Numbered from the stretch's first letter, positions 1-35,476 are shown. The stretch: DNA of 64,000 nt from Stella humosa (GCF_006738645.1 NZ_AP019700.1:5700351-5764350), one strand, 5' to 3'. Notes: generated by a model from the letters alone, not told the origin. Numbers and translations are program-made.

Positions 1-818
1 TGCCGCCGCTGACCCCGGCCGAGGCGCTGGAGGTGTCGCTGATCCACAGCGTCGCAGGATTGCTGGCGGACGGCCGGATCAGCCGGCGGCGCCCGTTCCG
101 CGACCCGCACCATTCGGCCTCGCACGCTGCCCTCATCGGCGGCCCGCGCGCGCGGCCGGGCGAGGTGTCGCTCGCCCATCGCGGCGTGCTGTTCCTGGAC
201 GAGCTGCCGGAATTCCAGCGGCCGGCGCTGGAATCCCTCCGCCAGCCGCTCGAATCCGGCCGCGCGGTGGTGGCCCGCGCGGCCGCCCACGTGGCCTATC
301 CGGCCCGCTTCCAACTCGTGGCGGCGATGAACCCCTGCCGCTGCGGGCAACTGGCCGATGCCGGCCTGGCCTGCGCGCGGGCGCCGGCCTGTGGGCGCGA
401 CTACCAGGCGCGCCTGTCGGGGCCGCTGCTCGACCGCATCGACCTGACGATCGACGTGCCGGCGGTCAGCGCGGCCGACCTCGCCCTGCCGCCGCCGGCC
501 GAAGGCTCGGCCGAGGTGGCGGCCCGGGTCGGTGCCGCGCGCGACCGGCAGCGCGCCCGCTTCGACCGGCTGGGTGCCGCCACGGTCGCTTGCAATGCCG
601 AGGCCGACGGCGAGTTGCTGGACGCCATCGCCGACCCCGAGCCGGACGGCAAGCGCCTGCTGGCCGACGCGGCCGACCGACTGAAGCTGTCGGCGCGCGC
701 CTGGCACCGCGTGCTGCGCGTCGCCCGCACGCTGGCCGACCTGGAGGCCTGCGAGCGCGTCCGCCGCATCCATGTCGCCGAGGCGCTGTCCTATCGGCGG
801 ACCGGCTTCGTCGGCTGA
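1..818 (+). CDS. comM: ComM/YifB-family Mg-chelatase-like AAA+ ATPase, C-terminal part (5' end outside window)
   Basis: ComM is a hexameric AAA+ helicase-like ATPase that promotes branch migration of incoming DNA during natural transformation. The open frame is already running at base 3 and reads PPLTPAEALEVSLIHSVAG, a segment found inside this family, so the gene starts upstream of the window. Visible features are the conserved RPFRDPHHSAS stretch, the Walker B-like VLFLDELPEF, the NPCRCG cysteine segment, the arginine-finger region GPLLDRIDL, and a C-terminal helical Mg_chelatase_C domain ending LSYRR. The stop lies 26 bp from the stop of the convergent aldolase gene. Family assignment is firm; the biological role is inferred from homologues. 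Confidence 0.93.
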   Translation, partial: PPLTPAEALEVSLIHSVAGLLADGRISRRRPFRDPHHSASHAALIGGPRARPGEVSLAHRGVLFLDELPEFQRPALESLRQPLESGRAVVARAAAHVAYPARFQLVAAMNPCRCGQLADAGLACARAPACGRDYQARLSGPLLDRIDLTIDVPAVSAADLALPPPAEGSAEVAARVGAARDRQRARFDRLGAATVACNAEADGELLDAIADPEPDGKRLLADAADRLKLSARAWHRVLRVARTLADLEACERVRRIHVAEALSYRRTGFVG

Positions 819-844
819 ACCGGCGGCCGGTCAACGGCCCCGGA

Positions 845-1591
845 TCAGTGCCGGTATTCGGGCTCCTGGCGATCCAGCATGCGCTTGATCGCGATGAAAT
901 GCCGCTCGGCCACCTTGGGCAGGTCGCCTGCCATCTGCTGGCGGACGTGGCGGCGGACCTCGTCGGGGATGGTGCGCAGTTCCTCGCCGCCGGACCGGGC
1001 CAGCACCTGGAACATGCAGGCGCGCTCCAGGTAGTAGAGGTCGTTGAAGGCATCGGCCACGGTCGGACCGACGGCGATGACGCCGTGGCTTGCCAGCATC
1101 AGCACGCTGGCGCTGCCCAGCCCGTCGGCCAGCCGGTCGCCTTCCGACCGGTCGAGCGCCAGCCCGCCATAGATCTCGTCATAGGCGATGCGGCCGTCGA
1201 ACATCAGGGCGTTCTGCTCGCACATCTGGAGCTGCATGCGCTGGCGCAGGGTGAGTGCGGTCGCGTGCGGCTGGTGGGTGTGCAGGACGGCCACCGCGTG
1301 CGGCGCCTTCAGGTGGATGCGGCTGTGGATGAAGAAGGCGCTGTCCTCGACCGGCCCCTCGCCCTCCAGCACGTTGCCCTCGGCATCGCACAGGCACAGC
1401 GACGAGGCCGTGATCTCCGACCAGTGCCAGCCATAGGGGTTGATCAGGAACCGGTCGCCGCGCACCCGGCCGTCGGCATCGGGCACGGCGACCGAGAAAT
1501 GATTGTCCACGCCCTCGTTCATGCCCAGCCGTGCCGCCCAGCGCAGTGCCGCCGCCAGGTCGACCCGCATCCCCTCGATCACTTCGCTCAT
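845..1591 (-). CDS. class II aldolase/adducin-family protein, last gene of the RT1-RT2 operon
   Basis: This 248-aa protein belongs to the zinc-dependent class II aldolase/adducin N-terminal family, whose members cleave or epimerise sugar phosphates or act as decarboxylases. The HxH pair is at His104/His106 (LHTHQPH) and a third histidine, His169, is in LASHGV, which matches the family's zinc ligands, so the metal site looks intact. The ATG at 1591-1589 overlaps the TGA of RT2 by four bases, which implies translational coupling. The substrate cannot be told. Family members occur in many unrelated operons, so a functional tie to the reverse-transcriptase-like genes is inference from gene order only. 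Confidence 0.88.
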   Translation of the reverse strand: MSEVIEGMRVDLAAALRWAARLGMNEGVDNHFSVAVPDADGRVRGDRFLINPYGWHWSEITASSLCLCDAEGNVLEGEGPVEDSAFFIHSRIHLKAPHAVAVLHTHQPHATALTLRQRMQLQMCEQNALMFDGRIAYDEIYGGLALDRSEGDRLADGLGSASVLMLASHGVIAVGPTVADAFNDLYYLERACMFQVLARSGGEELRTIPDEVRRHVRQQMAGDLPKVAERHFIAIKRMLDRQEPEYRH

Positions 1592-3108
1592 GCCCCTGCC
1601 TCTGCTCCTGCCATGCCGGGTGGTGCGGCCAGATCGCGCGCGACGGCGGTCGCGACCAGATCGACATGGGGATCGAGCCGCGCCCAGGCGGCCAGCGTCG
1701 TCTGCCGCACCGCAGCGGGACGGTAGCGGAAACCGAAGGCGATCGCTGCACGCAAGTGCGAGGAACGGGCGCCGCTGGCCAGACTTTCCAGCATTTCCCA
1801 GCCCCCGGCCGTGGCGAACCGGGCCAGCACGATAGCGGCCGCCGCCCGCGTCGTGTCCGGCAGCCGGCCGTCGCCGGCGATGCGGGCCAGCAACGGCGCG
1901 GTCCGGCCGGCGATGGCCGGCGCCTTCCACAGGGCCGACGCCGCCCACATCCATTGCCACGGGTGCAGGCGGCTGGCCGCGGCATGCAGGGCCGCCTCGA
2001 ACCGGTCGCGCACCGCCCGGTCGTCGAGGAAGAGGCCGATATAGAGGGCATAGATGCGCGCCGCCCACGGCACGTCGACGAAGCGTGACAGGGCCCGGTC
2101 CAGCGCCGAGCGGTCGCCGGCGCGGCCCAGCGCCAGCAATGCCCACTGCTCCACCTTGAAGGCATCGTAGCCATACCGGCCGAGGTCGGCCATCATCTCG
2201 CGGGCGGCCAGGTGCTGGGCCTCCGACGACCCGGGCTCGACCCAGAGGTTGGCCGGGCTGGCCCATTGGACCAGCAGGTCGGTTCGCGCGACGATGCGGG
2301 TCTTGTCGGGGTTGGGGGACATGCCCATCGCCGCCAGAAGCGCGGTCAGGCGGGCCATCGCGGCATCGGCGGCCGCGATGTCCTCCGTTGGCATGAGGAC
2401 GCCGTCGATCAGCCGGAACGATGGGCGGCCCAGCTCGGCGCACAGGCGGTCGAGCGGGCGGAGATGGATCGTGACCAGGGTACCGCTGGTCATGAGGTCG
2501 TTCAGCAGCCCGGCCGGCCCCAGCGTCTTCTCGAATGCCCGGTCGATCCGCTCGCCCTCGGCCAGCCAGGCGGCGGGCAGGCCCAGTCGGGCCAGCGACG
2601 CCAGCAGGTCGGCCCGGCGCAGGCTGGTGCCGGCGCGAGCGACGTCGATCTCCACGAAATGCGACCAGCGCTCGTCCTCGGCCGCCTGCTGGGTTGCCAG
2701 GCGAAAGCAATTGGCACTCCAGTCGGTCGAGGCCAGCAGCGCATCCTCGCCCGTCCGTGCCGGCAGGGAGGAGAAGACCCGGTCGCGGTCGAGGTGCGGC
2801 TCGGCCGCCTGGGCGGCCGCAGCGGCGAAGAGCTGGAAGAGGGTCCGCTCGACCGGCCCGAGGACGCCGTCCGCTCGCTCGGAGAATGTATTCTTGCCAG
2901 GGCGGTGGCGCAGGAACGTGTATGGGCAGGGCGGGCGCAGCGGCCGGCCGGCCAGGATGCCGGCCCGCACCCGGTCGAACGCCTGCTGGTAGACCAGCTT
3001 GTTGTGGGGTGCGAAGACGAACTCGCGCGCGGTCTCCCCCATCAGGGTGGCATGGGCGCGCCGCCACGTTGCGCCGTCGAGAGCCTGCGGATTGGCCCAG
3101 CCCGTCAT
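1588..3108 (-). CDS. reverse-transcriptase-like protein RT2 with degenerate motif C and helical-repeat C-terminus
   Basis: This 506-aa protein looks like a diverged reverse transcriptase of the Abi/UG (defence-associated) kind. Recognisable parts are the conserved FAPHNKLVYQQAFD entry block (about 32-45), DRVFSSLPA (about 109-117), motif A FVEIDVARAG with Asp155, a motif B-like region from 197, and motif C RLIDG (232-236), where the usual YxDD has lost its second Asp. PNPDKTR after it matches the thumb-side KT motif. Residues from about 300 to the end are Ala/Leu-rich helices resembling HEAT-like repeats. It is homologous to RT1 over its full length (shared DPWQ, VLARFAT and SSHLRAAIA-type blocks). 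It starts by ATGA overlap with RT1 and ends by ATGA overlap with the aldolase. Enzymatic activity is doubtful. Confidence 0.72.
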   Translation of the reverse strand: MTGWANPQALDGATWRRAHATLMGETAREFVFAPHNKLVYQQAFDRVRAGILAGRPLRPPCPYTFLRHRPGKNTFSERADGVLGPVERTLFQLFAAAAAQAAEPHLDRDRVFSSLPARTGEDALLASTDWSANCFRLATQQAAEDERWSHFVEIDVARAGTSLRRADLLASLARLGLPAAWLAEGERIDRAFEKTLGPAGLLNDLMTSGTLVTIHLRPLDRLCAELGRPSFRLIDGVLMPTEDIAAADAAMARLTALLAAMGMSPNPDKTRIVARTDLLVQWASPANLWVEPGSSEAQHLAAREMMADLGRYGYDAFKVEQWALLALGRAGDRSALDRALSRFVDVPWAARIYALYIGLFLDDRAVRDRFEAALHAAASRLHPWQWMWAASALWKAPAIAGRTAPLLARIAGDGRLPDTTRAAAAIVLARFATAGGWEMLESLASGARSSHLRAAIAFGFRYRPAAVRQTTLAAWARLDPHVDLVATAVARDLAAPPGMAGAEAGA

Positions 3109-4613
3109 GATGCGGGCGCCGGGGCGGGCTGGCGCGCCAGTGCCGTCGCCACCAGGGCGACCTGCGGGTCCCGCGCGGCCCACCGGCCGAGCAGCGGCGT
3201 CCGTTCGCCCGCGGGGCGGAACCGCAGTCCATGGGCGATGGCGGCCCGCAGATGGGGCGAGCGGGTGGCGTCGGCTACGGCCTCCAGCGCGGCCCACTCC
3301 GCGCGCGTGGCGAAGCGGGCAAGGACGGTTGTCGCGGCGATACGCAGCATCATCGCCGCACCCTTGTGGGCCGCCAGGGTTGCAAGGTGGCTCCGGAGCG
3401 GATCGGGCAGGCTCGGTGCGTGCTGGAATGCCGAAATTGCCCAGGCCAACTGCCAGGGGTCGAACTGCCGCGTCCCGGCAACGAAGACGGCCGCCATCCG
3501 GTCTGCCACCGCCGGGTCGTCCATGAAGCGGCCGACATAGCCGGCAAAGGCCCGGGCGGCGACCGGTGCCGCGCCGAACTGCCCGAGAACATGATCCAGC
3601 GCCGCCGGATCGCCGGCCCGCGCCAGCCGCGCGAGCGCGCCCTCGGCGATCGACCGCAATTGCGGATCGTCGGTGGCGGTCGCGCGCAGCCGGGCCAGGG
3701 CCTGCGCCGGTGACAGGCTGGGATGGGCGCGCCGGCGCGCCTGTCGCCGACGCCTGGCGCGGAACGCCGCCATCGTGTCGACGCCGCTCTTGGCGCGGTT
3801 GACGGCGAATCCACGGGCGGCCAGTTGGGCTTCCGCCGCCGCGGCCAAGCGATGGCCGGCCTCCAGATCGTCGGCCAGCATGACGATGTCGTCGAGCAGT
3901 CGGACCGACGGCACCCCCTGGCGGGCGCACCATTCATCCAGCCAGCGTAGCGTGACCGTGAAGAAACCGGCATTGGCGAGCAGGCCGGAGGGAACGCCGA
4001 GGGGGCGCGGGCACCGGGCGAAGCTGGCCCAGAAATCGTCGGCGATCCCCAGCCAGCCTGGCGGCAGGCCGAGCTGCCGCAGGTCCTCCGTCAGGGCGTC
4101 GCGGTCAGTCCGCTGGCCGCACTCGGCGATGTCGATCGCGACCACCGCCTGGGCGTTGGTGGTGGCGATGGCATGCTCCAGGGCGGTCGCGGCATCCCTG
4201 CTCCATTGCAGCGGCGGTACCACCAGCCCCGGCTCGGGCCCCGTCGCCGGCCGGCTCGAAAAGACCCGGCTGCGGTCGAGCACCGGCTCTGCCGTGGCTA
4301 CCGCCGTGGTGCACAGCAGCATGTAGAGCGCCTCGTCGGCGGGCAGCATCAGGGCATGGATCTGGTGGCGGCCGCGCTGCCCGGGACCGTTCCCCTTTGG
4401 CACGGCACAGGGGACGGGCGGCTGCGGCGGCTGGCGCTCCGCCGACAGCAGCGTGTTCCGCACCGCATCGAAGGCATGGCGATGCACGAAGTCCACATGG
4501 GGCGCATAGATCATGCGCTGGCGCCGCTGCGCCAGCAGCTCGGCCTGCAACCGGGCCCAGGTTTCCTCCGGGACGTCGGCCAGCGCCCGCGCCGCAGCCG
4601 CAGGCGCGGTCAC
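3105..4613 (-). CDS. reverse-transcriptase-like protein RT1 with intact Asp triad and helical-repeat C-terminus
   Basis: This protein, about 502 aa, carries a recognisable RT palm: the YAPHVDFVHRHAFD block (36-49), SRVFSSRPA (115-123), motif A VVAIDIAEC with Asp161, motif B GVPSGLLANAG (206-216), and motif C SVRLLDDIVMLADD with Asp241-Asp242. The order and spacing fit group II intron/retron/Abi-type RTs, with Leu in place of Tyr in YxDD. The remainder is alanine-rich helical repeats, as in the alpha-repeat domains of Abi-type RTs. No maturase, endonuclease or primase motif is visible. Start: I chose GTG at 4613-4611 because similarity to RT2 begins about there; no in-frame ATG lies nearby and the ribosome-binding site is weak, so the start is uncertain. 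Function (defence, domesticated or other) is unknown. Confidence 0.74.
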   Translation of the reverse strand: MTAPAAAARALADVPEETWARLQAELLAQRRQRMIYAPHVDFVHRHAFDAVRNTLLSAERQPPQPPVPCAVPKGNGPGQRGRHQIHALMLPADEALYMLLCTTAVATAEPVLDRSRVFSSRPATGPEPGLVVPPLQWSRDAATALEHAIATTNAQAVVAIDIAECGQRTDRDALTEDLRQLGLPPGWLGIADDFWASFARCPRPLGVPSGLLANAGFFTVTLRWLDEWCARQGVPSVRLLDDIVMLADDLEAGHRLAAAAEAQLAARGFAVNRAKSGVDTMAAFRARRRRQARRRAHPSLSPAQALARLRATATDDPQLRSIAEGALARLARAGDPAALDHVLGQFGAAPVAARAFAGYVGRFMDDPAVADRMAAVFVAGTRQFDPWQLAWAISAFQHAPSLPDPLRSHLATLAAHKGAAMMLRIAATTVLARFATRAEWAALEAVADATRSPHLRAAIAHGLRFRPAGERTPLLGRWAARDPQVALVATALARQPAPAPAS

Positions 4614-4779
4614 GACGATGCCGACGATGTTCTGTGGTATCGGGATACCATGCTGTCGATTCGGGTCCGACTCGCCGCGACTCCTGGGACGTTCATTGGA
4701 CGTTCCGTGATTCGCGCCCGAGTCGCAAAGCCATAAGCGGTCGTGATTCGTTCGAGGTTCGTTCGGGCGATCGGCCGGT
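4614..4779 (-). other. 166-nt gap upstream of RT1 with repeats; candidate leader or ncRNA
   Basis: This gap separates the glnD stop from the chosen RT1 start and has visibly lower GC than its surroundings. It holds several short repeats: GGACGTTC at 4687-4694 and 4698-4705, CGTGATTCG at 4706-4714 and 4742-4750, TTCGTTCG at 4747-4754 and 4758-4765, a 7-bp inverted pair at 4677-4683/4720-4726, and a near-perfect palindrome at 4635-4650. No clear rho-independent terminator for glnD is seen. Some retrons and DRT systems carry a structured RNA next to the RT gene, so this is the place to look for one. Nothing here proves transcription. Confidence 0.35.
4635..4650. repeat. inverted repeat, 7-bp arms with 2-bp centre
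   Basis: TGGTATC and GATACCA are perfect reverse complements around GG, 22 bp upstream of the RT1 GTG. It could be an operator or a small hairpin controlling RT1. It is the most AT-rich symmetric element in the gap. Confidence 0.5.
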
Positions 4780-7569
4780 TCAACCGACCGCCGCGCGGCG
4801 CGGCCGCACCGGTCGTGGCGCCGCTGCCGCACCTTCCGCCTCGGCGTTGCCGAACACGGCCAGCAAGGCCGTGCGGATCGCCTTGATCTTGGCTTCCTTC
4901 TCGACCTTCAGGCCGAACACGTCCTTGACGTAAAAGACGTCGACCACTTTCTCGCCATAGGTCGAGATGCGGGCGGTGGCGATCTGCACGCCCTGGCGGG
5001 TCAGCGCCCGGGTCAGGTCGGCCAGCAGGCCCGGCCGGTCGCGGCCGTTCACCTCGATCACCGTGTGGTTGGTCGACGCGCTGTTGTCGACCAGCACCCG
5101 CGGTGCCAGGGCGAGCGACCGGGTCGCCGGCGCGAAGGGCACCGGGCGGCGCAGCTCGGCCGTGGGCGACAGGCGGCCGTCCAGCGACTGCTCCACCATC
5201 ACCGCCAGCCGCGCCAGCCGGTCGGGCCGGTCGAAGGTCCCGCCCGTGGCGTCCTGCACGGCGAAGCTGTCGAGCGCCATGCCGTTGGCCAGCGTGTGGA
5301 TGCGGGCATCGACGATGTTGGCGCCGGCCACGGCCAGCGCGCCCGCGATGCGCGAAAAGAGGCCCGGATGGTCGGCGGTGTAGATGGTGACGTCGGTCAC
5401 GCCGCGCGCCGGGTCGACCCGGGTGTCGACGGTGAGCGCCCGGCCCTCGCGCTCGGCCGAGCGGATGATCCGCGCATGGCGGGCCTGGGTGTCGACATCG
5501 AGCCCCAGCCAGTAGGCGGGGTAGATGACGTCGGAGAAGAGGGCGAAGCTGTCGTCGTCCCAGTCCTTCAGGGCCTGGCGCAGGCGGTCGCGGGCGGCCG
5601 CGATGCGGGCCGCCTTGGGCTGGGCGCCGATGCCGCCCGACATGGCCTCGGCGGTGCGATGGTAGAGCTCGCGCAGCAACGTCGCCTTCCAGCTATTCCA
5701 CACCTTGGGGCCGACCGCGCGGATGTCGGCCACGGTCAGCGCCAGCAGCAGCTTCAGGCGCTCGGGCGACTGCACCTCGGCGATGAAGTCCTGGATGGTC
5801 TTGGGGTCGTCGATGTCGCGCTTGAAGGCGGTGTTGGACATCAGCAGGTGGAAGCGCACCAGCCAGGCGACCGTCTCGGTCTCCTCCGGCGCCAGGCCGA
5901 AACGTGGTCCCAGTTTGAGCGCGATCTCGGCCCCCAGGATGGAATGGTCGCCGCCCCGGCCCTTGGCGATGTCGTGCAGCAGCAGCGCGACATAGAGCGA
6001 GCGGCGGGAGGCGACGGTCGGCATCACCTCGCTGGCGACGGGATGGTCGTCCTTCAACTGGCCGCGCTCGATCCTCGACAGGATACCAAGCGCGAATATG
6101 GTGTGCTCGTCGACCGTGTACACATGGTACATGTCGTACTGCATCTGGGCGACGACGCGGCCGAAGTCCGGCACGAACTTGCCGAACAGGCCGACCTCGC
6201 TCATCCGCCGCAGGACATGCTCGGGGTCCTTGCGCGACGCCAGGATCTCCAGGAACAGGCGGTTGGCCTCCGGGTCGCGGCGCAGGCGGTTGTCGACCAG
6301 CCGCAGGTCGCGGGTGATCTGCTTCAGGGCGGCCGGATGGATGTCGAGGCCGGTGTCCTGGGCCGCATGGAACAGCCGCAGCAGGTTCACCGGGTCATCC
6401 TGGAACATGGTCGGCTGGGTCAGAGCCAGGCGCCCGCCCTCGACGGTGAAGCCCTCCACCTTGCGCCGGCGCAGGCCGAGCCGGCTCAGCAGCGGCGGGG
6501 CGGATTTCTTGTGCTCGGCCTCCAGCGCCGCGCAGAGGATGCGCGTCAGGTCGCCCACGTCCTTGGCGACCAGGAAATAGTGCTTCATGAAGCGCTCGAC
6601 GCCGCGCGTGCCGGCATGGTCGGTATAGCCCAGGCGGCGCCCGATCTCGGACTGCATGTCGAAGGTCAGCCGCTCGTCCGGCCGGCCGGCGATGTCGTGC
6701 AGGTAGAAGCGCACGGTCCACAGCAGGTCGTGGGCGCGCGCGAAGCCCTGGGCCTCTTCCGGCGACAGCACCGATCGATCGACCAGGGCCGCCACCTCGT
6801 CGACGCGATAGGCGTACTTGGCGATCCAGAACAGCGTGTGCAGGTCGCGCAGGCCGCCCTTCCCCTCCTTCAGGTTGGGCTCCAGCAGGTAGCGGCTGTC
6901 GCCCAGGCGGCGGTGGCGCTCGTCGCGCTCGGCCAGCTTGGCCTCGATGAACCCGATGGCATCGCGGCTCTGGATCTCCTGCTCGTAGCTGCGCCGCAGG
7001 TCGCCATAGAGCGCCTGGTCGCCCCAGATCCAGCGCGCCTCCAGCAGCGCGGTGCGCACCGTGTGGTCGGCCTTGGCCTGGCGCAGGCACTCGGCCACCG
7101 AGCGGGTCGAGTGGCCGACCTTCAGCCCCAGGTCCCACAGCAGGTAGAGCAGGTACTCCACCACCTGCTCGGTATGCGGGGTCGACTTCCACGGCAGCAG
7201 AAACAGCAGGTCGACGTCCGAGAAGGGCGCCAGCTCGGCCCGGCCATAGCCGCCCACGGCGATGATGCCGATGCGCTCGGACGTGGTCGGGTTGGACACG
7301 ACATGGACGTGCGACACGGTGGCGTCATGGAGGACGCGGATCACCTGGTCCATCAGGTGGGCCAGGCCGCGCGCCGCCTCGGCGCCGCGCTGGTTGGCGT
7401 AGAAGCGGCGCATCACCTCGGCCCGCCCATGGTCGAGGGCGGCCCGGACGATCTTCAGCAGCTCGGCCCGGAAGGCGTCGGGGCCAAGGCGGCGGGCGGC
7501 GACGGCGTCGACCTGCCGCAGCAGTTCGCTGCGGTCGACGATGGCACGCGGGCGGGCGATGGAGGTCAT
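4780..7569 (-). CDS. glnD: [protein-PII] uridylyltransferase / uridylyl-removing enzyme
   Basis: GlnD senses glutamine and adds or removes UMP on the T-loop tyrosine of PII, setting nitrogen regulation. The 929-aa protein has the nucleotidyltransferase signature GGYGRAELAPFSDVD at 106-120, an HD phosphohydrolase domain with LLLHDIAKG in the middle, and two C-terminal ACT domains (DHPGLFSRIAGAL and DRPGLLADLTRAL) that bind glutamine. Length and domain order are standard for the family. The ATG at 7569 overlaps the upstream GNAT stop by ATGA, so it is probably cotranscribed with mutS and the GNAT gene. Its PII target is encoded at 35138-35476. Confidence 0.97.
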   Translation of the reverse strand: MTSIARPRAIVDRSELLRQVDAVAARRLGPDAFRAELLKIVRAALDHGRAEVMRRFYANQRGAEAARGLAHLMDQVIRVLHDATVSHVHVVSNPTTSERIGIIAVGGYGRAELAPFSDVDLLFLLPWKSTPHTEQVVEYLLYLLWDLGLKVGHSTRSVAECLRQAKADHTVRTALLEARWIWGDQALYGDLRRSYEQEIQSRDAIGFIEAKLAERDERHRRLGDSRYLLEPNLKEGKGGLRDLHTLFWIAKYAYRVDEVAALVDRSVLSPEEAQGFARAHDLLWTVRFYLHDIAGRPDERLTFDMQSEIGRRLGYTDHAGTRGVERFMKHYFLVAKDVGDLTRILCAALEAEHKKSAPPLLSRLGLRRRKVEGFTVEGGRLALTQPTMFQDDPVNLLRLFHAAQDTGLDIHPAALKQITRDLRLVDNRLRRDPEANRLFLEILASRKDPEHVLRRMSEVGLFGKFVPDFGRVVAQMQYDMYHVYTVDEHTIFALGILSRIERGQLKDDHPVASEVMPTVASRRSLYVALLLHDIAKGRGGDHSILGAEIALKLGPRFGLAPEETETVAWLVRFHLLMSNTAFKRDIDDPKTIQDFIAEVQSPERLKLLLALTVADIRAVGPKVWNSWKATLLRELYHRTAEAMSGGIGAQPKAARIAAARDRLRQALKDWDDDSFALFSDVIYPAYWLGLDVDTQARHARIIRSAEREGRALTVDTRVDPARGVTDVTIYTADHPGLFSRIAGALAVAGANIVDARIHTLANGMALDSFAVQDATGGTFDRPDRLARLAVMVEQSLDGRLSPTAELRRPVPFAPATRSLALAPRVLVDNSASTNHTVIEVNGRDRPGLLADLTRALTRQGVQIATARISTYGEKVVDVFYVKDVFGLKVEKEAKIKAIRTALLAVFGNAEAEGAAAAPRPVRPRRAAVG

Positions 7570-8165
7570 GCGCCTCCCAATATAGCGCGTGGCAGCGCGT
7601 TTGACGCGGGTATGCCGTTGGAGGAGGGCCCGCCGTTCGAGGCGGGCTCGCCGCCCAGGAACCGCACCATCAGCAGTTCGTCGACATAGCGGTCGGCCAG
7701 GCGGAGCGCGTGCTGCTCCAGCCCGTAGGCGGTGAAGCCGCGGCTCTCGTAGAGGCGGCGGGCGCCGGCATTCTCGGCGACGACGCTCAGATGCAGCACC
7801 TCGACCCGGGGCTCGGCATGGGCCAGCACGCGGTCGATCAGGCGGGCGGCGATGCCGCGGCGGCGCCAGCCCGCCTGGACGTAGACGCCCCACACCATGC
7901 CCTTGTGCCGCCGCTTCTCGCCCGTCTCGGCGAAGAAGCCGGCCATGCCGATGGGCTGGCCGCCGTCGAAGGCGCCGAAGGTGTTCCCGCCGGCCAGCCG
8001 CTGGGCCACGACCTCCAGCGGCAGCGCCCGCTCGTCGGCCGGCGAGCTGCCGAACGCCTCGGGGTGGGCGTCCAGCGCCTCCAGCCGGAACGTGCGGAAG
8101 ATCTCGGCTTCGCCCGGCGCGAAGGCACGGATGCGGACCGGGTCGCCGGGGAGGGGGGCTTTCAT
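7566..8165 (-). CDS. GNAT-family N-acetyltransferase
   Basis: This 199-aa protein has a GNAT fold: motif [19 protein letters not shown] provides the acetyl-CoA pyrophosphate-binding loop (RRRGIA), followed by [21 protein letters not shown], the usual motif B. The acceptor is unknown. The last 30 residues form an odd tail with the near-repeat (A/S)SNG..(P/S) three times, which is not part of the fold and may be disordered. It starts by ATGA overlap with mutS and ends by ATGA overlap with glnD, so the three genes are translationally coupled. Coupling to those housekeeping genes does not reveal its substrate. Confidence 0.88.
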
Positions 8166-10852
8166 GGCAGCAATGCCTTCAGTTGGTAGAGGCGGTCGAG
8201 CGCCTCGCGCGGCGACAGGCCGTCGATGTCGAAGCCGGCCAGTGCCGTCTCGACCGGCGAGGCCGCCGGCGGGGCCGGCGGCCGGGCGGGTGCCTCGCGC
8301 AGGACGGCGAAGAGCGGCAGGTCCTCGGCCAGGCGGGCGGCCGCGCCCGACGTCTCGCCCTTCTCCAGCGCCGCCAGGACGGTCTCGGCGCGCGCGACGG
8401 CGGCGGGCGGCAGGCCGGCCAGGCGGGCGACATGGATGCCGTAGGAGCGGTCGGCCGCACCGGGGGCGACCGCATGCAGGAAGATGACGCTGCCCTGCCA
8501 TTCCTTCACCCGCATGGTGTGGCAGGCAAGGTCCGGCAGGCGGGCGGCCAGCGCCGTCAGCTCGTGATAGTGGGTGGCAAAGAGCGCGCGGCAGCGGTTG
8601 GCATCGTGCAGGTGCTCCACCGTGGCCCAGGCGATCGCCAGGCCGTCATGGGTGGCGGTGCCGCGGCCGATCTCGTCCAGGATGACGAAGGAACGCGCCG
8701 TCGCCTGGTTCAGGATGGCGGCGGTCTCCACCATCTCCACCATGAAGGTGGAGCGGCCGCGGGCCAGGTCGTCGGCCGCACCGACGCGGCTGAACAGCCG
8801 GTCGACGACGCCGATGCGCGCGCTGGCCGCCGGCACGAAGCAGCCGACCTGGGCCAGGATGGCGATCAGCGCGTTCTGCCGCAGGAAGGTCGACTTGCCG
8901 GCCATGTTGGGGCCGGTCAGCAGCCACAGCCGGCCGCCCGGCCCCAGCCCGCAATCATTGGCGACGAAGGCGCCGGCATCGGCGGCCAGCGCGGCCTCGA
9001 CCACCGGGTGGCGGCCGCCGGTCACCGCGAAGTCCAGGCTGGAATCGATCTCGGGCCGGGTCCAGCCGCCCTCGACCGCGCGCTCGGCCAGGGCGGCCGC
9101 GACGTCCAGCCGGGCCAGGGCGGCCGCCGCCGTTCCGATCGGGGCGGCCTCGGCCAGGACGGCGGCGGCCAGGCGGTCGAAGATCTCCAGCTCCAGGGCC
9201 AGCGCCCGGTCGGCGGCGCTGGCGATGCGGCTTTCCAGCTCACCCAGCTCCACCGTGGTGAAGCGCATGGCGCTGGCCATCGTCTGGCGGTGGATGAAGC
9301 CGTCGGCCGGCCGCAGCTTGTCGGCATGGGTGGCCGTGGTCTCGACGTAGTAGCCCAGCACGTTGTTGTGGCGGATCTTCAGGCTGGCGATGCCGGTCTC
9401 GCCGGCATAGCGCGCCTGCAGGCCGGCGATCATCCGCCGGCTGTCGTCGCGCAGCGCGCGGAGCGCGTCCAGGTCGCCGTCATGGCCGGGCGCGACGAAG
9501 CCGCCGTCGCGCGCCAGCAGCGGCAGGTCGGCCGCCAGTGCCGCCGCCAGCCGCTCCACCAGCGCCCGGTGATCCCCCAGGTCGGTACGGCAGGCGACCA
9601 GCCCCTCGGGCAGCGGCGGGAAGCCCGGTCCGTCCAGGCGCTGAGCCAGCCGATCGGCCGCGACCAGCCCGTCGCGCAGCGCGGCCAGGTCGCGCGGGCC
9701 GCCGCGGCCGAGTGCCAGCCGCTGCACGGATCGCTCGATGTCCGGCACCGCCGCCAGCGCTGCCCGCAGGTCGCGCCGCAGGTCGGGGTCGGCGACCAGG
9801 GCCGCCACCATGTCCAGCCGGCGGCCGATCGCGGCCGGGTCGGTCGATGGTGCCGCCAGGTCGGCCGCCAGCCGGCGCGCCCCGGCCCCGGTCAGGGTGC
9901 GGTCCAGCGTCGCCAGCAGGCTGCCGCGCCGCTCGCCCGACAGGGTCTCGAACAGTTCCAGGTTGCGGCGCGACGCCGGGTCGATCAGCAGGATGGCGCT
10001 GGTCTCGACCCGGCGCGGCGGTTGCAGGCGGGGCGCGCGGCCAAGCTGGGTCAGCCGCACATAGTCCAGCACCGCCCCCATGGCCGCCGCCTCGGCCCGG
10101 CCGAAGCCGCCGAAGGCATCCAGCGTGTCTACGCCATAGGCCTCGCACACCCGGCGGCGGCCGTTCTCGCTGTCGAAGCGCGCGGTCGGCAGGGGCGTCA
10201 GGCGCGGCTTCCAGTCGGCCAGCGCCCCCACCAGGTCGGCCCGGCCCAGCACCCGCTCCGACACCAGCAGCTCCCCCGGTGCCAGGCGGGCAAGCGCGGC
10301 GCCGACGGCGGCCGGCTCCAGCGGCTCGGCCGCCAGCTCGCCCGTCGACAGGTCGTGCCAGGCGAGCGCCAGCCCGCCGGTGGCATCGGCCAGGGCCGCC
10401 AGGTAGTTGTTGCGCCGGGCATCGAGCAGCGTGTCCTCGGTGATCGTGCCGGGGGTGACGATGCGCACCACCTCGCGCCGCAGCGGCCCCTTGTTGCCGC
10501 GCTTCTTCGCCTCGGCCGGGTCCTCGACCTGGTCGCAGATGGCAACCCGGTGCCCCTGGCGGATCAGGCGGGCGAGATAGGCCTCGGACGCATGCTGGGG
10601 CACGCCGCACATCGGGATCGGCTGGCCGGCATGGATGCCGCGCCTGGTCAGCGCGATGTCGAGCGCGGCTGCCGCCACCTCGGCGTCGGCGAAGAACAGC
10701 TCGTAGAAGTCGCCCATCCGATAGAACAGCAGGCAGTCCGGGTGCTGGCGCTTGATCGCCAGGAACTGGGCGATCACCGGCGATGCCGGGGCGATGTCCT
10801 TGGCGAGGTCGGGGGCGAGGTCAGGCGCTTCGATGGCGGCGGCGGTCGTCAT
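8162..10852 (-). CDS. mutS: DNA mismatch repair protein MutS
   Basis: MutS recognises base mismatches and small loops and recruits MutL. The 896-aa protein has the mismatch-wedging Phe-x-Glu motif in [10 protein letters not shown] (Phe49-Glu51), the connector and lever regions, the Walker [10 protein letters not shown], and the Walker B/signature segment [15 protein letters not shown]. The C-terminal [13 protein letters not shown] helix matches the MutS dimerisation/tetramerisation tail. The start ATG at 10852 precedes [11 protein letters not shown], a short nonconserved lead. It heads the minus-strand series mutS-GNAT-glnD, the usual neighbourhood of mutS with glnD in Alphaproteobacteria. 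Confidence 0.98.
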
Positions 10853-10935
10853 GATCGGCTTCCGATAGCACGACTCGCCCGCCGCCGCCGATCCCGCACC
10901 GCTAGCGATTGGTAGGACTTGTCGGCATTGCCTCT

Positions 10936-10960
10936 ATGGGTTGATAGGCCATGGGTTGAT
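10936..10960. repeat. 10-bp direct repeat in the mutS/RTX1 divergent region
   Basis: ATGGGTTGAT occurs at 10936-10945 and 10951-10960, 15 bp start to start, in the 245-bp region between divergent mutS and RTX1. It may be a regulator site. No convincing promoter hexamers are seen. Confidence 0.4.
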
Positions 10961-11097
10961 CGGGGATTCGCGCTTGGCCTAAGTTTGGCCCCTGACGATC
11001 GCGTTCGAGTCGCGATCCGCCGCCCGCCCCGCGGGACCGGGCGCGACCGCGAGGAACGCAGGCGACCCACGGGCCGCCGCAACCGGGAGGGCGACCC

Positions 11098-13839
11098 ATG
11101 GCGACGATCAATCTCGATGACGGCGACGCGTTCTGGCCCGAGACCGAGGGGCTGAACGATGGGGCGGACTCCGTCACGGGCGGCAATGGCGACGACACCG
11201 TGCTGGGCGGCAATGGCGTCGATGTCATTCGCGGCGGCCCCGGCGATGATTCGCTTTGGGGCGAGGCTGGCTCGGATTCCGTCTATGGCGACAACGACGA
11301 CGATATCCTGCTCGGCGGCGATGACGTCGACTACCTGTTCGGCGGCAACGGCGCGGATTCGCTGTATGGCGGCAATGGTGCCGACTCTCTCGACGGAGAC
11401 GGCAACAATGACCTGATCTTCGGTGAGGACGGCAACGACACCATCTTGGGCGACCTCGCCAACGACACGTTGGCGGGCGGCAATGGCCTCGACCTGATCT
11501 ATGGCGACGACGGTTCGGATTCGATCGCGGGCGATGCCGACGCCGACACGATCCATGGCGGCCAGGGCTCCGACGCCCTCGACGGCGGCGCCGGCAACGA
11601 CATCCTGCTGGGCGACGACGGCAATGACCTCGTCGACGGCGGCAGCGGCGACGACAGCATCGTCGGCGGCCAGGCCAACGACACCGTCCTGGGCGATGCC
11701 GGCGACGACACGGTGCTGGGCGGCCAGGGCAACGACAGCCTGCTGGGTGGCGACGATACCGACGACCTGCGCGGCGAGGATGGCGACGACCGCCTGCATG
11801 GCGGCAATGGCGGCGACAGCCTGATCGGCGGCAACGGCAACGACCTGATCGACGAGCGCGACTTCGACGGCGGCAACGACTGGATCCAGGGCGGCAACGG
11901 CATCGATTCGCTCTATGGCGGCAATGGCGCCGACACGATCTCGGGCGGGCAAGGCAATGATTCGATCCTGGGCGGGGCCGGCCAGGACGCGCTGACCGGC
12001 GACGCCGACGCCGACACGATCGAGGGCGAGGGCGGGGCCGACGTCGTCGACGGCGGCTCGGGCAACGACTTCCTGGCGGGCGGCGCCGACGACGACACGC
12101 TGACCGGCGGGCAGGGCAACGACACCATCGACGGCGGTGCCGGCGGCGACGAGATCGACGGCGGCGAGGGCTTCGACGTCATCTCCTACGCCACCTCCGC
12201 CGCACCGGTGACGATCGACCTAGCCGGCGGCACCGGCAGCGGCGGCGATGCCGAGGACGACGAGTTCGGCGCGGTCGAAGGGGTCATCGGCTCGGCCGGG
12301 GCTGATACGATCGGCGGCGATTCCGTCGCCAACCGGCTGGATGGCGGCGGCGGCAAGGATGCCATCGCCGGGCTGGCCGGCGCCGACACGATCTCGGGCG
12401 GGGCCGACGCCGACACCATCTCGGGCGGCGACGACGCCGATTCCATCTCGGGCGACGAAGGCGACGACCTGATCGAGGGCGGGGCCGGCGCCGACACGCT
12501 GGTGGGCGGCGGCGGCCGCGACGTCGCCAGCTATGCCCTGTCGGCAGCCGGCGTCTCGGTCAACCTGGCGAGCGACGGGGCCCAGGCCGGCGGCGACGCC
12601 GAGGGCGACCGCCTGTCCGGCTTCGAGGATCTCTATGGCAGCGATGCCGGCGACGATTCCCTGGTCGGCAATGGCGGCAACAACCTGATCCTCGGGTTCG
12701 GCGGCAAGGACACGCTGGTCGGCGGGGCGGGCGCCGACACGCTGGACGGCGGCAAGGGCGTCGACGCCTACAATGGCGGCACCGGCAACGACCTCTACAT
12801 CCTCGACAGCATCGACGAGGTGACGCGCATCGCCTTCGACGAGGGCGGCACCGACGACATCGTGCGCGCGCTGGCCCTGGCCTTCTCCGACAGCGAGCTG
12901 GCGGCGATCTATGCCAAGGGCATCGAGCAGGTGCAGGATTCCAAGGGCACGCACACCGCCCCCGCCTCGCCGCCGCCCGACGATCCGGGCCCGGCGCCGG
13001 AGCCCGGCGGCAAGGCCATCACCATCACCACCTTCCAGGAACTGGATGCGGTGAAGGAGGAGGACGGGATCGGGCTCGTAAACAGCTCGGCCTCGGTCGA
13101 CATGCCGGACTTCATCCCCAACATCACGATGCAGGGCCAGGCCAACCTGAATGCCGACGGCAACGACCTGCCCAACGTGATGATCGGCAATTCCGGCAAC
13201 AACATCCTGGTGTCCCATGACGGCAACGACAGCCTGATCGGCGGCGGCGGCAACGACTTCCTGCCGGCCGGCAAGGGCAACGACACGATCTGGGGCGACG
13301 ACATCGCCGGCACGACCAGCGGCGTCGACACCGTCTGGGGCGGCCAGGGCGACGACCTGATCCGCGGCGGCAAGGGCGACGACGGGCTGAACGGCGACCT
13401 CGGCGCCGACACGGTCGAGGGCGGCAACGGCAACGACCAGGTGAATGGCGGCGGCGACAACGACCGGCTGTTCGGCGGCGACGGCGCCGACACGCTGCGC
13501 GGCGGCCAGGGCCAGGACGTGCTGGATGGCGGCGAGGGCGTCGACCGGCTGGCCGGCGACCGCGGCGCCGACACCATAACCGGCGGCAATGGCGACGACG
13601 TCTTCGTCTTCCTGGCCGACAGCGGCGTCGACGTGGTGACCGATTTCGAGGCCGGGTCCGACCGGCTGGAAATCGCGTCGGACGTGAACGGCAGCGGCAT
13701 CATCGACTTCGACAGCTTCCTGGAGCGGGTCAGCGACATCAACGGCGATGCCGTGATCGACCTCGGCGACGGGGCGTCGGCGACGCTGCTGGGGGTCGCG
13801 CGGAAGGACCTGACCGACGACGACCTGATGATCGTCTAG
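11098..13839 (+). CDS. RTX (hemolysin-type calcium-binding repeat) protein 1, probably type I secreted
   Basis: The 913-aa product consists almost wholly of GGxGxDxxx nonapeptide repeats, which form a calcium-dependent parallel beta-roll after export. Two modules of the type ISYA...VTIDLAGG...GGDAEDDEF interrupt the repeats (from about 360 and 470). A Pro-rich linker (PASPPPDDPGPAPEPGG, about residue 620) and a non-RTX segment separate a second repeat block. There is no N-terminal signal peptide, and the C-terminus (DLTDDDLMIV, after a DFEAGSDRLEI segment) resembles type I secretion signals. The start is supported by GGGAGG about 8 bases upstream. No catalytic domain is recognised, so it may be a surface-layer, adhesin or matrix protein. 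No ABC exporter or TolC gene is nearby. Confidence 0.9.
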   Translation: MATINLDDGDAFWPETEGLNDGADSVTGGNGDDTVLGGNGVDVIRGGPGDDSLWGEAGSDSVYGDNDDDILLGGDDVDYLFGGNGADSLYGGNGADSLDGDGNNDLIFGEDGNDTILGDLANDTLAGGNGLDLIYGDDGSDSIAGDADADTIHGGQGSDALDGGAGNDILLGDDGNDLVDGGSGDDSIVGGQANDTVLGDAGDDTVLGGQGNDSLLGGDDTDDLRGEDGDDRLHGGNGGDSLIGGNGNDLIDERDFDGGNDWIQGGNGIDSLYGGNGADTISGGQGNDSILGGAGQDALTGDADADTIEGEGGADVVDGGSGNDFLAGGADDDTLTGGQGNDTIDGGAGGDEIDGGEGFDVISYATSAAPVTIDLAGGTGSGGDAEDDEFGAVEGVIGSAGADTIGGDSVANRLDGGGGKDAIAGLAGADTISGGADADTISGGDDADSISGDEGDDLIEGGAGADTLVGGGGRDVASYALSAAGVSVNLASDGAQAGGDAEGDRLSGFEDLYGSDAGDDSLVGNGGNNLILGFGGKDTLVGGAGADTLDGGKGVDAYNGGTGNDLYILDSIDEVTRIAFDEGGTDDIVRALALAFSDSELAAIYAKGIEQVQDSKGTHTAPASPPPDDPGPAPEPGGKAITITTFQELDAVKEEDGIGLVNSSASVDMPDFIPNITMQGQANLNADGNDLPNVMIGNSGNNILVSHDGNDSLIGGGGNDFLPAGKGNDTIWGDDIAGTTSGVDTVWGGQGDDLIRGGKGDDGLNGDLGADTVEGGNGNDQVNGGGDNDRLFGGDGADTLRGGQGQDVLDGGEGVDRLAGDRGADTITGGNGDDVFVFLADSGVDVVTDFEAGSDRLEIASDVNGSGIIDFDSFLERVSDINGDAVIDLGDGASATLLGVARKDLTDDDLMIV

Positions 13840-25736: not shown

Positions 25737-28568
25737 ATGGCCACTTTTACGCTGACGACTGGTGCCGACAATTTTCCGGGTGTTGAAGACAACTCCGGCT
25801 CCGATCTGATCTACGGCTTGGCCGGCAAGGACACGATCGACGGCGGTGAAGCCAACGACACCATCTTCGGCGACGACGCGGGCGACCTGATCTATGGCGG
25901 CGCCGGCGACGACAGCCTCTTCGGCGACAGCTCCAGCGACACGGTCGTCGCCAGCGGCAACGACACGATCTACGGCCAGGACGGCGATGACACGCTGTTC
26001 GGCGGCGTGCTGAACGATTTCCTGTTCGGCGACGAGGACGACGACCTGATTGCCGGCGGCGGCGGCAAGGACAAGCTCGACGGCGGCGACGGGAACGACT
26101 TCCTGTTCGGCGGCAACGGCGACGACAAGCTGGCCGGCGGTGCCGGCGCCGACACGCTGTGGGGCGGTGAGGACGACGACACCATCGAAGGCAATGGTGG
26201 CGCGGACTACGCGTTCGGCGGCAACGGCGACGACAGCATCGAAGGCAACGGCGGCGACGACACGATCTTCGGCTGGTTCGGCGAAGACACGGTCATCGGC
26301 GCCCAGGGCGACGACACGATCTTCGGCGGCTTCAATGCCGACTCGATCGTCGGCGGCAACGGTGAGGACTTCCTCTTCGGCGGCAACGGCGACGACACCA
26401 TCGAGGGCGGCGAAGGCAACGACGTCATCGACGGCGACTGGGAGATCGGCAGCTACTACTACGGCACCTATGGCGGCGACGACTCGCTGGACGGCGGCAC
26501 CGGCAACGACACCATCTTCGGCGGCAACGGCGACGACTCCATCACGGGTGGGGAAGGCGACGACAGCCTGATGGGCGATTCCTGGTCCGACTATTATTAC
26601 GGCGGCAACGGGATCGACGACGGCAGCGACACCATCCTCGGCGGCAACGGCAACGACTACGCCTGGGGCGGCAACGGCGACGACTCGATCATCGGCGGCA
26701 ACGGCGACGACTCGCTGGAGGGCGGCGAGGATTACGACACCGTCCTCGGCGGCGAAGGCAACGACTCGATTGAGGGCAACGACGGCGAAGACTCGCTGAT
26801 CGGCGGCAATGGCAACGACTCGCTGTGGGGCGGCTACAGCGACGACTCGCTGCTGGGTGGCAACGGCAACGACGTCGCGATGGGCTATGACGGCGACGAC
26901 TCGATCGTCGGCGGCAACGGCGATGACAGCATCTTCGGCGGCGAGGACTACGACACGCTCTCTGGTGGCAACGGCAACGACACCATCGGCGGCGGCGAAG
27001 ACGAGGACATCATCTACGGCGGCAACGGCGACGACTCGCTGTTCGGTGGCTACGCCCACTACAACTACGACGAAGACGGCGACGAGGATGGCGACACCAT
27101 CTTCGGCGACGAGGGCAAGGATCGCCTCTTCGGCACCGAGGATCGCGACTACCTGTCGGGCGGCACCGGTAACGACACGATCGAGACCGGCCACGGCTAC
27201 GGCGGCTACATGTACGGCGACTCGATCTGGACCGGCGCCGGCGCCGACGAGATCCGCGGCTACAGCGCCGAAGACCTGGGCGAAGACAGCGTGTTCGACT
27301 TCACCTCGGGCAAGAGCCCGTCGCAGTCGGACTACATCGTGGTCGAGGGGGACTACCGCGACCTGGACGGCGACACGATGTCGGGTGCGGTGGTGTTCAA
27401 CGACACCGTCACGGCGATCTACCTCTACAACAACGGCAACCCGGTCGAAGGCCAGATCGACGCGGACTTCGACAGCGGCACCGGCCAGACGACCATCTGG
27501 ATCATCGACAATGACGACATCGCGCCCGATGCGCCGGTGATCACGTCCTTCTCGGACAACACCGGCGACACGGTCGACAACGTCACCACCGACCAGACGC
27601 TCTACATCTACGGCGAGGCCGAGCCCGACAGCACCGTCACCATCTTCAAGGATGGCAAGGAGGTCGGCCAGGCGACGGTGGACGGCGACGGCGAATTCGT
27701 CTTCGACTTCACCGGCACGTCGCTGGCCTATGGGATCCACGGCTTCACGGCCACCTCCACCGACCAGGCCTCCAACGAGTCGGACCCGTCGGATCCCTTC
27801 CCGATCATCATCCAGGGCAGCAACACCTCGACCAACAACCCGGATGTGCTGGTCGGCGGGCCCGGCATCAACAACATCGACGGCAAGAACGGCAACGACC
27901 AGATCTTCGGTCTCGCCGCCAACGACACGCTGAAGGGCGGCAACGGTAACGACCTCGTCTATGGCGGGACCGAGAACGACGCCCTCTACGGCGGCAACGA
28001 CAACGACTCGCTCTACGGCGAGGCCGGCAACGACACCGTCTACGGCGAGAACGGCAACGATCTCGGCGTCGGTGGCGACGGCAACGACCGCCTCGAAGGC
28101 GGCGCGGGTGCCGACACGCTGGATGGCGGCACGGGCGCCGACACGATCATCGGCGGGGCTGGCGACGACAAGATGAAGGGCGGCACGGGTGCCGACCGTC
28201 TCTATGGCGAGGCCGGGTCCGACTATATCGACCTGGGCGACGCAGACACCGCGACCGGCGATGCCGGGAACGGCGACACGTCGCACGACAGCGTCTACGG
28301 CACCGTCGCCTTCCTCAGCGGCGACACGCTGGCCGGCTTCAACACCGGCAACTCGAAGGACGACGACTCCGACGTGGTGGTGATCACCGGCCTGCAGTCC
28401 AAGAACAACAAGCTGCTGGCCAACATCGAGCTGCTCGACGGTGTGCTCTCGCTCACCAAGGTCGGCGGCACCGACATCACCTTCCTCGACGAGGACGGCA
28501 ATGCGCTCAGCGGCCATACCGACACCATGCTGGGTGCCGACAACTCGGTCCTGATCTACATCATCTGA
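25737..28568 (+). CDS. RTX protein 2 with one Ig-like domain, probably type I secreted
   Basis: The 943-aa product is mostly GGxGxDxxx calcium-binding repeats. I chose ATG 25737 (GGGGGG upstream) because the resulting start, MATFTLTTGADNFPG, resembles MANLVLTNFADTFPS of RTX3. Tyr-rich insertions (SYYYGTYGG, WSDYYYGG, YAHYNYDEDGDEDG) break the repeat array. A non-RTX segment (about 530-590, DYIVVEGDYRDLDGDTM, TAIYLYNNG) leads to a bacterial Ig-like domain (about 600-700, ITSFSDNTGDTVDNVTTD) and then a second RTX block. No signal peptide and no enzyme domain are seen. Role is unknown; adhesin, S-layer or matrix protein are plausible. Confidence 0.9.
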   Translation: MATFTLTTGADNFPGVEDNSGSDLIYGLAGKDTIDGGEANDTIFGDDAGDLIYGGAGDDSLFGDSSSDTVVASGNDTIYGQDGDDTLFGGVLNDFLFGDEDDDLIAGGGGKDKLDGGDGNDFLFGGNGDDKLAGGAGADTLWGGEDDDTIEGNGGADYAFGGNGDDSIEGNGGDDTIFGWFGEDTVIGAQGDDTIFGGFNADSIVGGNGEDFLFGGNGDDTIEGGEGNDVIDGDWEIGSYYYGTYGGDDSLDGGTGNDTIFGGNGDDSITGGEGDDSLMGDSWSDYYYGGNGIDDGSDTILGGNGNDYAWGGNGDDSIIGGNGDDSLEGGEDYDTVLGGEGNDSIEGNDGEDSLIGGNGNDSLWGGYSDDSLLGGNGNDVAMGYDGDDSIVGGNGDDSIFGGEDYDTLSGGNGNDTIGGGEDEDIIYGGNGDDSLFGGYAHYNYDEDGDEDGDTIFGDEGKDRLFGTEDRDYLSGGTGNDTIETGHGYGGYMYGDSIWTGAGADEIRGYSAEDLGEDSVFDFTSGKSPSQSDYIVVEGDYRDLDGDTMSGAVVFNDTVTAIYLYNNGNPVEGQIDADFDSGTGQTTIWIIDNDDIAPDAPVITSFSDNTGDTVDNVTTDQTLYIYGEAEPDSTVTIFKDGKEVGQATVDGDGEFVFDFTGTSLAYGIHGFTATSTDQASNESDPSDPFPIIIQGSNTSTNNPDVLVGGPGINNIDGKNGNDQIFGLAANDTLKGGNGNDLVYGGTENDALYGGNDNDSLYGEAGNDTVYGENGNDLGVGGDGNDRLEGGAGADTLDGGTGADTIIGGAGDDKMKGGTGADRLYGEAGSDYIDLGDADTATGDAGNGDTSHDSVYGTVAFLSGDTLAGFNTGNSKDDDSDVVVITGLQSKNNKLLANIELLDGVLSLTKVGGTDITFLDEDGNALSGHTDTMLGADNSVLIYII

Positions 28569-28614
28569 TCGGGGCAACCCGACCCGCGGGGCTCCGTCCC
28601 GCAAGGCAGACCTG

Positions 28615-28645
28615 GGGGCGGCCGCAAGGCCGCCCCTTCTCTTTT
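28615..28645 (+). terminator. rho-independent terminator after RTX2
   Basis: GGGGCGGCC and GGCCGCCCC (28615-28623, 28628-28636) form a 9-bp stem capped by a GCAA tetraloop and followed by TTCTCTTTT, a textbook terminator 47 bp after the RTX2 stop. Confidence 0.92.
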
Positions 28646-28965
28646 GCCGCGCTGCGTTCATCCGGCCGGCGCCCTTCCAGCCGGGGGCGAGCCCGTCCGA
28701 TGCGGCGGCGTTCCGCCTCGACCCATATGCTGGGGATGGTCCGGGATTCCCGTGGCAGGGCTAGTGGGCAACGCAAATACTGCGGTGCTCGCAATCGTTG
28801 CGCGGCGGCCACGCCTGCGAACAGAAACCAATAACGCGTTGACTTTGCCCGCAGAGTTGCGTTGATTGACGTTGAGAATCTGCGCGGGCGGAGGGGGTCC
28901 GAATCCGTACGCGCGCACCGGGTGGCTCGGACACGCCCGGTTGTCGCACTCCAAGGGGGCTTTCG
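28646..28965 (+). other. 320-bp noncoding region upstream of RTX3
   Basis: No gene is seen here. The part from about 28760 to 28880 is AT-richer than its surroundings and contains a 6-bp inverted pair GCAACG/CGTTGC (28768-28773, 28796-28801) and three copies of CGTTGA (28837, 28860, 28870). A purine-rich AGGGGG before ATG 28966 serves as the RTX3 ribosome-binding site. The length suggests a regulated leader. Confidence 0.5.
28839..28867 (+). promoter_or_regulatory. promoter-like element upstream of RTX3
   Basis: TTGACT, 17 bp, TTGATT: the same hexamers and spacing as upstream of RTX2, 99 bp before the ATG. Conservation between paralogous genes is the main support. Confidence 0.4.
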
Positions 28966-34917: not shown

Positions 34918-34975
34918 GCCCGAGCCGGCCGGCGCCCCCGCCAGGGGACGCCGGCCAGGCGCCGGTCCGAACGGC

Positions 34976-35005
34976 AAAAGGCCAGCGGGCAACCGCTGGC
35001 CTTTT
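34976..35005. terminator. bidirectional rho-independent terminator between RTX3 and the PII gene
   Basis: AAAAGGCCAGCGG and CCGCTGGCCTTTT (34976-34988, 34993-35005) form a perfect 13-bp stem with a GCAA loop. A on one side and T on the other let it serve RTX3 (+) and the convergent PII gene (-). Confidence 0.92.
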
Positions 35006-35137
35006 CCGTGTCCGGCTCGAAGTCGCCGCTCGAAGGTCCGAAATTGGACGCCCCGCCGGCGGCAGCCGGCGGGGCGTGGGACCGCCACCCGACGCAGTCG
35101 GCTGCGCCAAGCGGCGAAGGGGAAATCCTGGGGGTGG

Positions 35138-35476
35138 CTACAAGGCTTCGCTGCCCGTCTCGCCGGTGCGGATGCGCACGGCGTGGGCAATGTCGAGGAT
35201 GAAGATCTTGCCGTCGCCGATGCGGCCGGTGTTGGCGGCCTTCTGGATCGCGTCCACGACCGGCAGGGCCAGGTCGTCGTCGACCGCCACCTCGATCTTC
35301 ACCTTGGGCACGAAGCTCACGGCATATTCGGCGCCGCGATAGATCTCGGTCTGGCCCTTCTGCCGACCGAAGCCGCGGACCTCGCCGACGGTCAGGCCCT
35401 GGACGCCAAGCGCGGTCAGCGCCTCGCGTACATCATCGAGCTTGAAGGGTTTGATGATGGCCATCACCAGCTTCAT
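35138..35476 (-). CDS. glnB: nitrogen regulatory protein P-II (GlnB/GlnK family)
   Basis: PII is a trimeric sensor of 2-oxoglutarate, ATP/ADP and, through uridylylation, glutamine. The 112-aa protein has the T-loop with the uridylylation site Tyr51 (EIYRGAEY), FGRQKG before it, and the nucleotide-binding GDGKIF and RIRTGE segments. The beginning MKLVMAIIKPFKLDD and YAVSF lean slightly to GlnK, but no amtB follows, so glnB versus glnK is not settled. GAGGAA precedes ATG 35476. It is monocistronic, ending before the shared terminator at 34976-35005. GlnD at 4780-7569 is its expected modifier. Confidence 0.96.
   Translation of the reverse strand: MKLVMAIIKPFKLDDVREALTALGVQGLTVGEVRGFGRQKGQTEIYRGAEYAVSFVPKVKIEVAVDDDLALPVVDAIQKAANTGRIGDGKIFILDIAHAVRIRTGETGSEAL

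Follow-up and report, generated by a model that had tools for sequence, protein, structure and literature searches.

The window, that is, the whole stretch of 64,000 nucleotides that was analysed, comes from Stella humosa, whose genome is a single contig of 5,832,650 bases; the chromosome published for S. humosa (now Allostella humosa) ATCC 43930 has this size (PMC6687932). The locus under study lies near the start of the window and comprises two genes for reverse-transcriptase (RT)-like proteins, an aldolase gene, the junctions between them, and a short upstream region:

845..1591, minus strand: class II aldolase/adducin-family protein of the PRK06486 type, 248 aa (Aldolase_II, 1.8e-43); read as an ancestral neighbour outside the RT unit
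1588..1591, minus strand: RT2-aldolase stop/start overlap ATGA, GGGGCATGAGCG, 4 nt; in Stella sp. ATCC 35155 the two genes are instead 8 bp apart
1588..3108, minus strand: RT2, 506 aa, paralogue of RT1; motif-A D155 retained, motif C degenerate (LIDG) with D235 retained and the second Asp gone
3105..3108, minus strand: RT1-RT2 stop/start overlap ATGA, GCATCATGACGGG, 4 nt; also in Stella sp. ATCC 35155
3105..4613, minus strand: RT1, 502 aa, GTG start; predicted UG20-derived RT fold with an alpha-helical repeat C-terminus; motif-A D161 and motif-C D241-D242 (LLDD) retained
4636..4649, no strand assigned: palindrome GGTAT-N4-ATACC, 22 bp upstream of the RT1 start; kept in all four Stella genomes
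4669..4726, no strand assigned: non-coding element, CGACTCGC ... CGAGTCGC, lying between the operon and glnD; conserved in every one of the four Stella genomes

The three reading frames and the ATGA overlaps linking all three S. humosa genes are as the initial annotation had described them. Its observation that RT1 and RT2 are homologous along their whole length also holds, with 36% identity over 489 aligned positions, end to end (E = 8e-72). The locus is surrounded by the housekeeping genes comM, glnD, and mutS and lies in no defence island, which counts against a defensive role. Elsewhere in the window, a 913-aa protein rich in RTX calcium-binding nonapeptide repeats (HemolysinCabind, 1.4e-108) is encoded at 11098-13839 on the plus strand. 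Two very long open frames overlap on opposite strands at 28561-35190 (minus) and 28966-34917 (plus), and Pfam gave no match for the minus-strand frame.

The top profile for both RT-like proteins was RT_UG20 from PADLOC (8e-37 for RT1, 3.5e-51 for RT2), which describes a candidate group of anti-phage RTs (DRTs), at 125 bits against 68.5 for the next group in RT1 and 173 against 51 bits in RT2. Genuine UG20 proteins score 662-759 bits on this profile, so RT1 and RT2 are distant from UG20. Stella sp. ATCC 35155 has three relatives, a second RT1-RT2 pair and a solo copy, and these also matched RT_UG20 best and by a wide margin. Matches to Pfam RVT_1 (1.8e-6 for RT1, 0.0014 for RT2) both fell below the curated cut-off, and a PDB sequence search with RT1 matched no RT.

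We modeled both proteins with AlphaFold, using only five sequences, and obtained a pLDDT of 85.6 and pTM of 0.86 for RT1 and a pLDDT of 77.5 and pTM of 0.76 for RT2. Both models contain an RT palm, including the motif-C hairpin, followed by a helical repeat at the C-terminus. The nearest full-length solved folds were DRT6 (9wy8; Z = 19.0 over 442 residues for RT1 and 16.8 over 422 for RT2), DRT4 (9vdo/9vdv), and UG15 (9l9s), with AbiK and Abi-P2 behind them. The C-termini of the models matched artificial alphaRep proteins; models and structure matches together display the trait of Class 1 UG/Abi enzymes, an RT domain joined to HEAT-like alpha-helical repeats. Two earlier proposals are thereby supported: the RT palm, on which the RVT_1 and RT_UG20 profiles and the models agree, and the helical-repeat C-termini typical of UG/Abi RTs, for which the models and the DRT6, DRT4, and UG15 matches speak.

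A tree of the five Stella proteins, two UG20 proteins, and 27 other RT rows placed the Stella proteins in one clade (100/100) with UG20 as sister (96/94). The stem of this clade is very long (1.64) and the Stella rows failed the composition test; because of these long branches and skewed composition, the sister relation is less certain than its support values. Within the clade, one branch unites both RT1s and another holds both RT2s and the solo copy, which dates the duplication to before the species split. The suggestion of a diverged RT pair thus stands in the profile search as well as in the phylogeny: RT_UG20 is the best match, the proteins are nevertheless far from every profiled group, and the pair occurs in two species. 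Judged by their sequences, RT1 and RT2 are a UG20-derived sister lineage and not normal UG20 members, because they lack the group's motifs A (DxANFF) and C (YVDD).

The pair was rare in our searches. Scanning genome contigs recovered relatives in Stella sp. ATCC 35155 only, and the plasmid, phage, and viral-contig collections yielded none, which counts against a role in conflict with phages. When a profile built from the pair was run on 385 genomes of the class, it picked out the two Stella genomes, followed by UG20 in genome G182 and weak RT matches, and no other such pair. With the UG20 profile, full-length UG20 proteins were found in G182, G698, and G862, each encoded by a single gene with YVDD; the literature we searched held no published function for UG20. 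The solo RT2-type copy of ATCC 35155 lies outside the pair locus (contig L007, 6927-8453). Its site is rearranged, since its flanking pieces lie scattered in other Stella genomes.

Comparison within the genus suggests how the pair arrived. In two of the four genomes, the sister species S. vacuolata ATCC 43931 and a fourth genome, G002, the aldolase occupies the same place without any RT: the aldolase and glnD flanks are 82-86% identical in DNA to those of S. humosa, with about 150-166 bp between them. Conservation of the upstream region extends to all four genomes, which places the RT pair between the aldolase gene and a promoter older than the pair. The palindrome in particular is present with or without RTs and carries a compensatory change in G002; it is therefore part of the older aldolase promoter region. 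Both the palindrome and the conserved element next to it resemble a putative operator/promoter region for the aldolase. At the collinear position, the S. vacuolata spacer contains a 55-bp stretch similar to the 3' end of RT2; its score of 49 was reached in none of 200 shuffles and in 8 of 3,000 composition-matched segments. Within the scanned segments, a single GC-rich stretch of the S. vacuolata mutS region accounted for all equally high scores, and the best of these lay off the collinear place. These 55 bp are a probable RT2 remnant; the G002 spacer contains no such remnant. We read the pair as gained in the ancestor of the three named Stella species and then deleted in S. vacuolata, so that the two-gene unit has been lost at least once. 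Horizontal replacement of the pair, at which its raised but inflated dS (given below) might hint, could also account for its divergence; the probable remnant favours vertical descent with loss.

The active sites are eroded, and unequally so. Motif A reads IDIAECG in RT1 and IDVARAG in RT2 of S. humosa, and motif C reads LLDD and LIDG. All seven aligned proteins, five from Stella and two UG20, retain the motif-A Asp (D161 in RT1, D155 in RT2) and the first Asp of motif C (D241, D235). The second motif-C Asp persists in both RT1s (LLDD, MMDD) and is Gly or Ser in both RT2s and the solo copy; the fingers Arg splits likewise, present in the RT1s and gone from the RT2 line. The position five residues after the motif-A Asp, which we take to be the steric gate by comparison with HIV-1 Y115 and MMLV F155, is Phe or Tyr in 29 of 29 other RTs and in none of the five Stella proteins (G, G, G, D, G). 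The motif-C aromatic and the motif-B Gln are missing from the Stella proteins as well. With the steric-gate aromatic absent from both RTs and the motif-C Asp lost from RT2, two losses that the initial annotation had missed, ordinary reverse transcription is doubtful. Because no member has the steric gate, normal dNTP polymerisation was probably abandoned already in the pair's ancestor. Taken together, the motif losses argue against ordinary dNTP polymerisation, and the retained Asp residues would leave room for metal binding.

These residues also bear on whether RT1 could still be a working enzyme. It might be an active, template-independent, protein-primed DNA polymerase like DRT4 or AbiK, with RT2 as an inactive structural partner and DNA made upon infection leading to abortive infection. 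The two catalytic Asp residues conserved in all seven aligned proteins, UG20 included, the DD and fingers Arg kept by the RT1s of both species and lost by RT2, and the Class 1 polymerases at the top of the full-length fold matches would all suit such an enzyme. The RT1s of both species, however, have Gly at the gate and lack the motif-B Gln and motif-C aromatic; in ATCC 35155 the motif-D Lys of RT1 is gone too, and no Tyr common to both RT1s offers an obvious primer. We consider an active RT1 unlikely, if still worth bearing in mind.

The genes evolve fast and yet stay intact. Between S. humosa and ATCC 35155, dN was 0.51 for RT1 and 0.47 for RT2, compared with 0.044 for the aldolase, 0.056 for glnD, and 0.10 for comM. 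The RT dS values (0.89 and 0.94, versus 0.51-0.65 in the flanks) are inflated because protein identity is only 44-50%, and dN/dS came to about 0.5 for the RT pair versus 0.08-0.15 for the flanking genes. This pattern fits conflict-driven change, or loosened catalytic constraint under continued selection. Genes with a waning function could likewise evolve fast and be lost, and one could regard the pair as former defence genes decaying under relaxed selection, with no present function, as the lost catalytic motifs, the elevated dN/dS, and the deletion in S. vacuolata would lead one to expect. Against decay, all five frames in the two species remain open, whereas neutral simulation gave a mean of 3.8-6.6 stops per gene and almost never zero. 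The two species also agree in pair order and coupling, and they conserve the helical-repeat domain, where identity between species is higher (0.52-0.59) than in the palm (0.41-0.43). We regard outright decay as quite improbable.

The initial annotation had taken all three genes as one unit with the aldolase as its third component, and had looked to recurrence in other genomes. The RT1-RT2 pair does recur in the same order and with the same ATGA overlap in ATCC 35155; the aldolase is not bound to it. It lies 8 bp from RT2 in ATCC 35155, and because it occurs, 81-95% identical, without RTs in S. vacuolata and G002, two of the four genomes, it falls outside the unit. A joint action of RTs and aldolase, as a new defence effector or in a domesticated metabolic role, could draw on the three linked S. 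humosa genes and their common upstream region. It is very unlikely given the RT-free sites, the missing aldolase-RT2 overlap in ATCC 35155, an aldolase dN roughly a tenth that of the RTs (0.044 vs about 0.5), and a solo RT in ATCC 35155 with no recognised class II aldolase beside it. The empty sites led us to reject the aldolase as effector, and a third component is not supported; the aldolase is best seen as an older neighbour.

The reading we favour, tentatively and at a little less than an even chance, is that RT1 and RT2 form a UG20-derived, Class 1-like pair that has become, in part or entirely, a pseudo-enzymatic hetero-oligomer with a probable role in conflict with phages. One UG20-like RT of Class 1 type, with a palm and alpha-helical repeats, would have duplicated into the translationally coupled RT1-RT2. 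The pair would then have been placed between the resident aldolase's promoter and coding sequence, at a time when the three star-shaped Stella species had yet to diverge. For template-free, protein-primed synthesis, Class 1 enzymes assemble into homo-oligomers (PMC13275509), and the product of DRT4, of which DRT6 is a structural homologue, is random single-stranded DNA (PMC13213688). By analogy with the homo-oligomers of the solved enzymes, RT1 and RT2 may hetero-oligomerise through their helical repeats, a proposal drawn from the shared fold and the conserved coupling. In such a complex RT1 would retain a residual metal site, and RT2 would serve as a pseudo-subunit. Once triggered by phage infection, the complex may halt the host while making little or no DNA by ordinary processive synthesis. 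The motif losses lead us to infer that normal synthesis has diminished or ceased, and evolutionary rate, sporadic presence, and ancestry that the role lies in phage conflict.

A more novel reading is possible but rather doubtful. With a palm that keeps the two main metal Asp residues and a steric gate changed to Gly in four of five proteins (Asp in the fifth), the pair might be a hetero-oligomer that adds ribonucleotides or performs another nucleotidyl transfer, or it might be a true pseudo-RT sensor; either would be an RT-derived defence module not described so far. Defence RTs are increasingly shown to yield unusual DNA products. A duplicated RT with one DD and one DD-less subunit, no steric gate, and selection maintaining both genes would offer a natural experiment on RT-fold defence without normal DNA synthesis. 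The three sequenced Stella species, two with the unit and one without it at the same chromosomal site, provide a ready comparison.

Among known systems, DRT3 invites the first comparison, since it too has two adjacent, overlapping RT genes; it combines RTs of different classes with an ncRNA (PMC13174585), whereas the Stella RTs arose by one duplication inside their clade and an Rfam search of positions 1-12000 gave no match, a result that leaves room for an undescribed RNA. A DRT3-like pair of two different RTs with a templating ncRNA is extremely unlikely, despite the adjacent genes, because no Drt3a (UG3) or Drt3b (UG8) profile is among the matches listed for RT1 and RT2 (E up to 1) while real DRT3 pairs in our survey, as positive controls, score 1e-75 to 1e-209, and because the conserved upstream element occurs also where the RTs are absent. 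On these profiles DRT3 was rejected. The survey came upon five adjacent RT pairs, four of them DRT3; the Drt3a-Drt3b pairs lie at L094, L095, L096, and L098, in four other genomes of the class, and motif C of Drt3b at L096 is YVDN, not YVDD.

UG20 proteins share with RT1 and RT2 the layout of RT palm and alpha-helical repeats. The UG20 genes that we found are single and retain their motifs, with intact FF in motif A and YVDD at L052 and L076 and YVDD in the third, from G862; the Stella genes are a coupled pair whose products share only about 18-25% identity with UG20 and have degenerated in motifs A, B, and C. The Class 1 UG/Abi enzymes DRT6, DRT4, and UG15 have their full-length fold in common with RT1 and RT2 over 420-445 aligned residues. 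The solved members of that class are single-gene, homo-oligomeric polymerases, whereas the Stella unit consists of two paralogues with eroded active sites.
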